Positions 32,739-34,994 of a DNA stretch of 64,000 nt are shown here, in pieces. The notes under the pieces are model-generated. The model saw nothing but the letters and a program-made list of their open reading frames with translations. It had not been told where the DNA came from and made no database searches. The DNA comes from Saccharicrinis fermentans DSM 9555 = JCM 21142 (GTDB lineage Bacteria > Bacteroidota > Bacteroidia > Bacteroidales > Marinilabiliaceae). Every line of letters starts with the position of its first letter. Position 1 is the first letter of the stretch. The stretch spans positions 3,779,980 through 3,843,979 of the forward strand of contig NZ_KI912107.1 of NCBI RefSeq assembly GCF_000517085.1, written 5' to 3'. The position numbers and the translations under genes are program-made.

Positions 32739-34154
32739 TCAAAACGCAGCAGCTAACTCCACTGCTTTTTTCAGTGCCCCCAATTTATTATTCACCTCTG
32801 CCAACTCACTTTCCGGAACCGATGCCGAAACCACACCCGCACCAGCCTGATAATACAGAGTATTATTTTTACAAAGGAAAGAGCGAATCATAATGGCCTG
32901 ATTAAAAGAACCATCAAAACCTAACATACCAATACAACCGCCATAATATCCACGGTTTTGGTTTTCGTATTTATCAATCAGCTCCATAGCCTTATACTTG
33001 GGTGCTCCCGAAAGTGTTCCTGCAGGAAAAGTATCAGCCATCACCCTACAAGTATTGGAACTCTTCTTGAGCTGCCCCCTCACATCAGATACAAGATGAA
33101 GAACGTGAGAATAATATTGTACTTCTTTGTAAGTCTTTACCTTTACTTTTTCACAATTTCGACTTAGATCATTACGGGCCAAATCAACCAACATCACATG
33201 TTCAGCATTCTCTTTGGGGTCGTTGCTCAACTGCTCAGCCAGCTCCTTATCCTTAATGTCGTTCCCTGTACGCTTAAAAGTACCGGCAATAGGATTAATC
33301 GTCGCCTCACCCTTACGAATCACCAACTGAGCCTCAGGTGAAGAACCTAGTATTTTATAACTTCCATAATCAAAATAATATAAATACGGAGAGGGATTAA
33401 TATTACGCAAAGCCCTATAAACATTAAACTCATCTCCGGTATACTTACGTTTAAACTGCCGCGAAAGTACGATCTGAAACACGTCTCCTCTAAAACAATG
33501 TTCTTTCCCCTTTTTCACCATCTCTATATAATCATGATCACTTACATTAGACACTTCTTCCCCATCCGGATGAAAACTAAAGTTGGGCACCGTACGATTA
33601 TGCAACAGTTCCATAATTTCGTCCAGCTCACTTTCCTGACCCTCAGGCAAATTTTCTATCAGCTTTATTTGGTTTGAAAAATGGTTAAACGCCAAAACAT
33701 ATTTATAATAATTATACCTGATCTCCGGTATCTCATATGCTTCATCTACCTTATTTTTCAACTGAATCGATTCAAAGTGCTGCACGGCATCATAGGATGA
33801 ATAACCAAATAAACCATTTACTTTAGGGGCATTGGTGGGCAACTCCACATTAAACAACTTTAAAAAGGAATCCAATTGAGCAGGCACATCCTTTATGGCA
33901 GGGCTTTCCCCTTTTTCGATCGTTCCTTCGGGCGAAGTTGTTTCTACTACGCCTTGGCTTACTTTAAATTCAGCAATTGGCTCAAAACATATGAAAGATT
34001 GAGAATTGTTGTTACCGTGATAATCTGAACTCTCCAATAATATTGTATTGGGATATAAATCGCGTAGTTTTAAGTAAATGCTGACCGGCGTTATGATGTC
34101 TGCTATGTTAGCTGGAACTATCTTTGTTGAACTAATGATATTGATGGACTTCAT
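32739..34154 (-). CDS. trpE: anthranilate synthase component I
   Basis: Chorismate to anthranilate, the committed step to tryptophan. The catalytic domain shows GSSPEAQLVIRKG, NPIAGTFKRTG, LVDLARNDLSRNC, FPAGTLSGAPK and YYQAGAGVV. The N-terminal LLES-x10-SF element (LLESSDYHG..., around residue 40) is the tryptophan feedback site known in this family, so end-product inhibition is likely in addition to the transcriptional attenuator upstream. Length 471. First structural gene of the operon, 32 bases after the leader terminator. Confidence 0.96.
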   Translation of the reverse strand: MKSINIISSTKIVPANIADIITPVSIYLKLRDLYPNTILLESSDYHGNNNSQSFICFEPIAEFKVSQGVVETTSPEGTIEKGESPAIKDVPAQLDSFLKLFNVELPTNAPKVNGLFGYSSYDAVQHFESIQLKNKVDEAYEIPEIRYNYYKYVLAFNHFSNQIKLIENLPEGQESELDEIMELLHNRTVPNFSFHPDGEEVSNVSDHDYIEMVKKGKEHCFRGDVFQIVLSRQFKRKYTGDEFNVYRALRNINPSPYLYYFDYGSYKILGSSPEAQLVIRKGEATINPIAGTFKRTGNDIKDKELAEQLSNDPKENAEHVMLVDLARNDLSRNCEKVKVKTYKEVQYYSHVLHLVSDVRGQLKKSSNTCRVMADTFPAGTLSGAPKYKAMELIDKYENQNRGYYGGCIGMLGFDGSFNQAIMIRSFLCKNNTLYYQAGAGVVSASVPESELAEVNNKLGALKKAVELAAAF

Positions 34155-34186
34155 AAGTCTTTCTGATTTTTAGTGTTTGACCTAGT

Positions 34187-34230
34187 GAAAAAAAAAATGG
34201 CTTACCGAGGTTTCGGCAAGCCATTTTTTA
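34187..34230 (-). terminator. trp attenuator terminator
   Basis: On the minus strand AATGGCTTGCCG pairs with CGGTAAGCCATT (12 base pairs with one G-U), loop AAACCT, followed by nine T. It lies between the leader peptide stop and trpE, with about 24 bases between stop codon and stem. It is not at the end of any gene, so it acts as a conditional terminator of the trp operon. Confidence 0.85.
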
Positions 34231-34254
34231 TATTTTATATAATAGCGTAGCGTC

Positions 34255-34305
34255 CTACCTCTTTTCCTTTGAAAAAAGCCAGTGCCACCACCATGTATTG
34301 TTCAT
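34255..34305 (-). CDS. trpL: trp operon leader peptide
   Basis: A 16-codon reading frame, M-N-N-T-W-W-W-H-W-L-F-S-K-E-K-R, then TAG. Four of 16 codons are the rare Trp codon TGG, three in a row. It sits about 30 bases after the predicted transcription start and 25 bases before an intrinsic terminator that precedes trpE. This is the layout of ribosome-mediated attenuation: when charged tRNA-Trp is scarce the ribosome stalls on the TGG run and the terminator should be disfavoured. A strong antiterminator is not obvious; GAGGU in codons 14-16 can pair with ACCUC in the terminator loop and 3' arm (five pairs). Too short for standard gene finders. Confidence 0.88.
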   Translation of the reverse strand: MNNTWWWHWLFSKEKR

Positions 34306-34341
34306 TATCTTTGTCATTTGCTTATAATTTGTTAGCAAGGG

Positions 34342-34373
34342 CAAATTTTAGGATATTTTTTGAAATATCAAAA
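34342..34373 (-). promoter_or_regulatory. trp operon promoter
   Basis: Reading the minus strand, TTTTG (34369-34373) and TAAAATTTG (34342-34350). The distance between the two TTTG blocks is 23 bases, the same as in the Bacteroidota consensus TTTG-N19-TAnnTTTG, although the TA is one base further upstream than ideal. Transcription would begin near 34335, about 30 bases before the leader peptide ATG. Confidence 0.6.
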
Positions 34374-34412
34374 TTTATTTTGCTTTTAAATTGTTTTTTT
34401 AATTACCCAACA

Positions 34413-34604
34413 CTAGACTGACATCCCCAAAAACACCTCACTCAATATTTGTGAATAGTTCGATCCAAACTCCTTCTTTACCCAATAATACAACGCTTCA
34501 CTTTCCTCATCACTCAGCCACACAAGTGACTTAACAATCTCTTTTCTAAAACGTCTGGGGTTATTTGCCACCCCTAACAACACTTTTTTTTGATGCTCTA
34601 ACAT
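34413..34604 (-). CDS. small unknown protein upstream of the trp promoter
   Basis: A 63-residue basic, probably helical protein beginning MLEHQKKVLLGVANNPRRF, with a W/E-rich middle. No membrane segment or signal. The ATG at 34604 is preferred over an in-frame ATG at 34658 because the extra 18 residues look non-coding. Its stop is 40 bases before the trp -33 box. No family is recognised; its regular amphipathic pattern favours a real gene. Confidence 0.6.
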   Translation of the reverse strand: MLEHQKKVLLGVANNPRRFRKEIVKSLVWLSDEESEALYYWVKKEFGSNYSQILSEVFLGMSV

Positions 34605-34658
34605 GATAAATATTTTTGGTAAAACTGCCTGACTCTTCCGGGGTAGAAAGATCAACAT

Positions 34659-34994
34659 ACAACGTTAAATAATTTATATTTGAATGTTATAATGTTATGG
34701 ATGTTTTCATCCGAAACAAACATCAGAAAGGTCTATTAAAAAAATTGAACGATTTAGCTTAAAATGGTTCAATGCATTCAACCATAAAACATGCCAAACT
34801 ACATCTTCCAGGCAAAAAAACTCCCCCTTATAGCATCACTAAATTGACTTTTTACCCTTGTAATTTTCTTATTTTATTGTATATTACAGATATAAATAGC
34901 CTATCATTACAAATAGTTTTTTTTTACAATTATCACTAATCACCCACAGCTAAAAAATATATTATTCTGTAATTCAGGCAAAAAACCAAAGCTT
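34659..34994. other. 336-base gap, AT-rich
   Basis: Divergent spacer between the small minus-strand gene and the PhzF-like gene. It contains a plus-strand TATATTTG (34675-34682) without a -33 partner, an inverted repeat GATGTTT/AAACATC (34700-34706, 34718-34724), and a 21-codon frame from ATG 34697 that is probably meaningless. No gene supported. Confidence 0.5.

Follow-up and report, generated by a model that had tools for sequence, protein, structure and literature searches.

The window is the whole 64,000-nt stretch of Saccharicrinis fermentans DSM 9555 that was analyzed (contig NZ_KI912107.1), and all coordinates given here are positions within it. On its minus strand, a promoter, a Trp-rich leader open reading frame (ORF) and a terminator precede trpE, which confirms the positions proposed for this locus in an initial annotation. 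The features of the locus are as follows.

34342–34373, minus strand: Bacteroidota-type promoter, TTTTG plus an 18-nt spacer plus TAAAATTTG; read from the sequence.
34255–34317, minus strand: leader ORF MTKIMNNTWWWHWLFSKEKR with stop codon TAG, 20 codons; from the sequence and start conservation.
34279–34293, minus strand: Trp codons TGG TGG TGG CAC TGG, the proposed stall site; from Trp clusters upstream of trpE in a phylum-wide sample.
34242–34294, minus strand: 1:2 (protector) hairpin; from RNAalifold on nine species.
34257–34261, minus strand: arm 2, GAGGU, which comprises the 3' end of the leader coding sequence plus the first stop-codon base; from pairing cells in the genus.
34241–34246, minus strand: GCUAUU, 5' side of a second antiterminator helix; from genus pairing with AAUGGC.
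34220–34225, minus strand: AAUGGC, base of the terminator 5' arm and partner of GCUAUU; from genus pairing and folding.
34207–34211, minus strand: ACCUC at the terminator apex, spanning the loop and the start of the 3' arm and pairing with arm 2; from apex-swap, genus and state-folding data.
34188–34229, minus strand: intrinsic terminator with U tract; from a terminator scan, with 134 of 134 genus cells paired.
32739–34154, minus strand: trpE, the operon's first gene, encoding anthranilate synthase component I; from its ATG at 34154 and domains PF00425 and PF04715.

The gene downstream of the attenuator is indeed trpE, as annotated from its ATG and its two domains. The operon has the order trpE-G-D-C-F-B, a LysE-type exporter gene and trpA; trpE and the LysE-type gene were assigned by domains, and the remaining names are translations judged by eye. 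The exporter gene (PF01810; 27683–28315) is thus located within the operon, between trpB and trpA. Among the matches listed, the closest named relatives of this TrpE are those of Labilibacter marinus (86%) and Plebeiobacterium marinum (82%), both of which we take to be Marinilabiliaceae, Bacteroidota. A search for the Trp repressor had no match in the window's genome at E 0.001, and the same search was positive in the E. coli control.

For the promoter, TTTTG lies at 34373–34369 and TAAAATTTG at 34350–34342 of the minus strand, and the pattern holding both is kept in all nine members of the genus alignment, such that the promoter proposed at 34342–34373 is upheld by the sequence as well as by its conservation. 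Bacteroidota promoters have the consensus TTTG / TAnnTTTG; the window promoter differs in having three bases rather than two between TA and TTTG. The leader peptide (34317–34255) reads M T K I M N N T W W W H W L F S K E K R stop, with the four TGG codons at 34293–34285 and 34281–34279. The Trp-rich ORF and its four TGG codons are therefore as first annotated. The start codon is not; a 16-codon leader starting at 34305 had been proposed, and although this position is an in-frame ATG, it is GTT in one member of the genus (L084) and ATA in another (L085). The 20-codon leader is preferred because the ATG 12 nt upstream, at 34317, is present in 9/9 genus members and that at 34305 is not conserved. 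In the window, two short ATG ORFs (8–60 codons, both strands) have at least three Trp per five residues, one of them being the leader. In the genome, TGGTGGTGGCA occurs at eight sites, including the window leader, versus two for the reversed control.

The intrinsic terminator sits between the Trp leader and the first structural gene. Its stem (34229–34192) has 17 pairs including A-U ends, six of them G-C, and the 12-base-pair core recognized initially is part of it; the T tract (34197–34188) has ten T, not nine. Within 33900–34900, both strands together have two terminator-like sites, compared with 0.6 expected from shuffles.

The distribution of such leaders was examined in three samples. The first consists of the best 80 matches listed in a TrpE scan of named contigs. 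The second covers the window's family, in which a search of 71 genomes gave matches in 69 and 66 loci were used, and the third the phylum (296 genomes searched, 181 matched at E 1e-80, 89 further loci taken). Removal of eight duplicates and L110, which has 44 nt of upstream DNA, from the 235 loci left 226 unique upstream regions, a sample picked by TrpE similarity and not an even census. A leader was called by script as an ATG ORF of 8–60 codons with at least two Trp in five residues within 400 nt of trpE; where two leaders were present, the script in some instances picked the upstream one, and not all calls were checked by eye. By this definition, 205 of the 226 regions have a leader (at least three Trp in five residues in 171). 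In an alignment of relatives, a check suggested along with the initial annotation, arm 2 covaries with the terminator apex in the genus. Both a leader and an intrinsic terminator 3' of it are present in 198/226. Shuffled controls had leaders in 59/2260 and the stricter Trp cluster in 2/2260, and the opposite strand had 6/226 and 1/226, respectively.

Within the family, 63 of 65 loci have a leader within 400 nt (46 with at least three Trp), and the other two have one farther upstream, which brings the count to 65/65. In these two loci, L123 (the same as L008) and L124, the Trp leader is found about 430 and 640 nt upstream of trpE, respectively, leaving a few hundred extra bases between attenuator and gene. 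Overall, 21 of the 226 regions have no leader within 400 nt, and 14 of these are labelled as MAG. A wider look at these 21 (600 nt, other start codons) recovered L008, L063 and L071, and the leader of L124 lies farther upstream; the other 17 remained without a credible leader in that wider search. Among 20 distant loci picked from the list, with TrpE 38–42% identical (L216–L235), 18 have a leader and 17 also a terminator.

The last leader codons and the stop codon can base-pair with the apex of the terminator hairpin. In the window, the five-pair GAGGU:ACCUC exists as it had been described; it joins 34261–34257 to 34211–34207, and it covaries in the genus. With one neighboring base included (GAGGU(A):(A)ACCUC, pairing with 34212–34207), 51 of 54 genus cells are paired, compared with 20–31 of 47–54 when one side is slid, and two pairs have changed on both sides within the genus of nine, versus none in the slid controls. 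Across 198 loci, the pairing of arm 2 with the apex is genome-specific: its mean energy with the locus's own apex is −11.85 kcal/mol, compared with −8.37 (sd 0.19) after permutation (z −18.4). The gain over swaps is highest, at 1.5–2.7 kcal/mol, in 14-nt windows whose start lies at −18 to −6 relative to the end of the stop codon; it falls to 0.4–0.85 kcal/mol in windows at −33 to −21 and is about zero farther away. Only 25% of the loci beat 95% of the apex swaps, because relatives share sequences. The window's own apex match is ordinary among the swaps (row 0.13, column 0.44).

A second helix, between GCUAUU and AAUGGC, can hold the 5' arm of the terminator. In the genus, 52 of 53 cells of this helix are paired, compared with 19–27 of 52–53 in the slid controls; it has no covariation within the genus because it is nearly invariant. 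A role for such a helix throughout the phylum was not supported, as 14-nt windows after the stop codon paired with the terminator 5' arm about as well as swaps did (−0.28 at most), and this swap test found no general support for the second helix outside the genus. For windows at −24 to −12 relative to the end of the stop codon, pairing with the 5' arm exceeded that of swaps by 0.5–0.75 kcal/mol. The idea that GAGGU:ACCUC could work only as a pseudoknot was abandoned when folding brought out the second helix; a pseudoknot may still form.

In the 1:2 hairpin, the Trp codons pair with GCUACGCUAU 3' of the stop codon, and CUUUUUUC:GAAAAGAG forms over arm 2. In the genus, 162 of 171 cells of this hairpin are paired versus 77–91 of 163–170 in slid controls, a score obtained on the same nine sequences from which the structure was derived, and double changes are not in excess (one versus one to two slid). 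Compared with dinucleotide shuffles, the 1:2 stretch is more stable across 198 loci (mean z −2.21; 55% below −2), to which coding constraint may contribute. In the same 198 loci, the Trp-codon region pairs better with its own post-stop bases than with swapped ones by 0.3–0.8 kcal/mol. A small GUAG/CUAC hairpin, named in the initial annotation as part of the antiterminator, occurs in some folds of the window alone, yet the nine-species genus alignment does not preserve it in that form; there, its bases take part in the 1:2 hairpin with the Trp codons.

Minimum-energy folding was conducted for different ribosome states, with 13 nt assumed to be masked from the A-site codon on. Without a ribosome, the window forms the 1:2 hairpin and the terminator, and with the ribosome at the stop codon it forms the terminator only. 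In RNA extending to 34205, the antiterminator is the minimum with the third or fourth Trp codon in the A site, not with the first or second. Among the sampled 3' ends, the arm 2:apex helix is the minimum only at 34206, for stalls at the second Trp, third Trp, His and fourth Trp codons but not at the first. Once the window's RNA has grown by two further bases, the upper part of the terminator stem wins over the arm 2:apex helix, and in the finished transcript the terminator wins in every state tested. Among the nine genus members, with RNA up to the apex, this helix forms in all when the third Trp codon is in the A site, and it is the minimum in 3/9 for the first Trp codon and in 8/9 two codons past the third. 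Across the wider set, at least four arm 2:apex pairs form in 31/198 loci without a ribosome, 112/198 at the first Trp codon and 129/194 at the last, to be read against a swapped-terminator control that already pairs in 228/582. In this 198-locus test, the window was cut two bases later and scores 0 in all three states. By position, covariation and state folding up to the apex, there is thus an antiterminator arm that a ribosome on the Trp codons leaves open and one at the stop codon blocks; for the window alone, state folding gives this result weakly. Under the same protocol, the E. coli trp leader forms its 1:2 hairpin without a ribosome and its antiterminator on stalling, holds the latter over 12 nt of growth, and has the terminator at the end. 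Minimum-energy folding cannot settle the efficiency of the switch.

Taken together, the window very probably contains an ordinary ribosome-mediated trp attenuator that senses charged tRNA-Trp for the trp operon, a reading proposed initially and well supported by the comparisons, namely the spread of leaders, the apex swaps and the covariation in the genus. For ribosome stalling, its effect on transcription and the kinetics at this leader, we infer the following states. On a ribosome-free leader, arm 2 would be hidden by the 1:2 hairpin, and the terminator would form. When charged tRNA-Trp is ample, a ribosome at the stop codon would cover arm 2 and part of GCUAUU, with the terminator again as the outcome. 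When charged tRNA-Trp is scarce, stalling on the W-W-W-H-W codons would open the 1:2 hairpin; arm 2, once freed, could pair with ACCUC at the apex, GCUAUU could pair with AAUGGC at the foot of the terminator 5' arm, and as a consequence of these two pairings termination would be delayed or avoided and trpE transcribed. The initial annotation also suggested that the switching mechanism may differ from the classic one. The layout is the usual one, with a protector hairpin and a second antiterminator helix that were both absent from the initial annotation, and what remains of this suggestion is that, under the same folding protocol, the window's antiterminator has less strength and a shorter lifetime than the E. 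coli one.

These last properties are also what an alternative explanation would draw on, in which the leader and terminator are real but lack a working switch, and expression is set by fixed partial read-through or is controlled at translation, by Rho or through mRNA decay. In every state tested, the complete leader has the terminator as its minimum-energy fold, and in the model the window's antiterminator persists only briefly. However, the E. coli trp leader has the same thermodynamic bias, the complementarity of arm 2 to the apex is specific to each genome and strongest at the stop codon, and the Trp clusters found in 205/226 regions would be purposeless for a fixed terminator. Taking these points into account, the absence of a switch appears improbable. 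The short ORF could alternatively encode a functional Trp-rich small peptide, such as a tryptophan-responsive arrest peptide like TnaC. By eye, some residues past the Trp run (H, N, R) recur within lineages, but across lineages only the Trp cluster is common. Moreover, the codons adjacent to the stop track the terminator apex, and the window's peptide has no Pfam or NCBIfam match, such that a function of the peptide itself is highly improbable. Even less credence, close to none, is given to control of the terminator by a small-molecule riboswitch or by a protein-bound leader of the TRAP type. The genus does have conserved bases around GCUACGCUAUU 3' of the stop codon, but these may be explained by pairing with the Trp codons and the terminator arm, and a search of the window returned no Rfam family at its gathering score.

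The attenuator reading places the window within a known kind of element. The search of the whole window at the Rfam gathering threshold returned no family, and RF01692 (Bacteroid-trp) surfaced only by an E-value search, with 45.6 bits (E 7.9e-4, the best match in its own genome) and alignment over all 131 positions. This score is below the 49-bit cut-off; therefore, the window is not filed as a formal RF01692 member. By its Rfam description, RF01692 is a Bacteroidetes tryptophan peptide leader in which Trp codons pair with bases after the ORF, like the window, and its consensus structure has a hairpin comparable to the window's 1:2 hairpin. The RF01692 model, however, stops in the terminator 5' arm, so that the complete terminator and the arm 2:apex helix, both present in the window, are outside it. 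RF01692 is the same sort of element, and thus a Trp attenuation leader in Bacteroidota is already known in kind and the window is a sub-threshold, RF01692-like case. Work by Merino, Jensen and Yanofsky from 2008 and by Lopatovskaya from 2010 is also said to contain what may be predictions of attenuation in Bacteroidetes. The Bacteroid-trp motif, the basis of RF01692, is listed in Table 1 of its source (Weinberg et al., 2010; PMC2864571) and resembles the E. coli trp leader according to another publication (PMC6414381). The E. coli leader (trpL; RF00513) and the window share Trp codons in a short ORF, a protector hairpin, an antiterminator and a terminator, and RF00513 itself is absent among the matches up to E 10 in 34100–34450 and does not reach its gathering score. 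The two differ in that arm 2 of the window lies at the stop codon and forms five to six pairs with the apex, supplemented by a second helix of six pairs, whereas the E. coli antiterminator has 11 pairs and is stronger and longer-lived in the same minimum-energy folding.

In a search of the window's family under stricter filters, RF01692 matches 13/71 genomes at E 0.01 and passes the cut-off in 1/71. At its cut-off, the model therefore misses nearly all cases in the family, where a leader was found in 65/65 loci. One family member has a second RF01692-like match (G058:C43:59085–59210; 46.9 bits) about 4 kb upstream of trpE, in addition to the 48.7-bit match located at trpE.

More broadly, there is about an even chance that trp attenuation is ancestral and near-universal in Bacteroidota, with a compact arm at the stop codon that targets the terminator apex and with a doubling in one family, probably Prolixibacteraceae. 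If so, transcription and translation would be tightly coupled at leaders across Bacteroidota, a phylum whose mRNAs are without Shine-Dalgarno sequences (PMC6847099). Such leaders provide a ready test of transcription-translation coupling in Bacteroidota, and the trp operon of the window's organism can be interpreted as a classic attenuator from which no part is missing. The phylum-wide spread and the tandem element are presented with no claim of being unpublished.

By eye, 11 loci (L013, L014, L016, L018, L020, L024, L026, L032, L033, L036 and L051) have a second Trp leader, with its own stop-region arm and terminator, upstream of the trpE-proximal one and about 235–410 nt before trpE. The peptides of these upstream leaders include, for example, ..NTIWLPWWGLL.. 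or ..SIWLWWGNTFLC, and a helix of about 10 pairs, CAATATGGCT...AGCCATATTG, was seen by eye over the first Trp codon. These apparently tandem attenuators include loci on Draconibacterium, Mariniphaga and Prolixibacteraceae contigs, and for this reason the family concerned is probably Prolixibacteraceae. A pattern for the tandem element matched 65/100 genomes of family f121 and none of the reversed control, with the matches in G829 and G784 looking like chance; a stricter pattern matched 2/393 genomes of the order and is absent from the window's genome. Among 30 loci fetched with the tandem pattern (L250–L279), all except L259 have it on the strand of trpE, 172–970 nt upstream, and 28 of the 30 carry a pair of TGG codons (adjacent or one codon apart) no more than 260 nt 3' of it.
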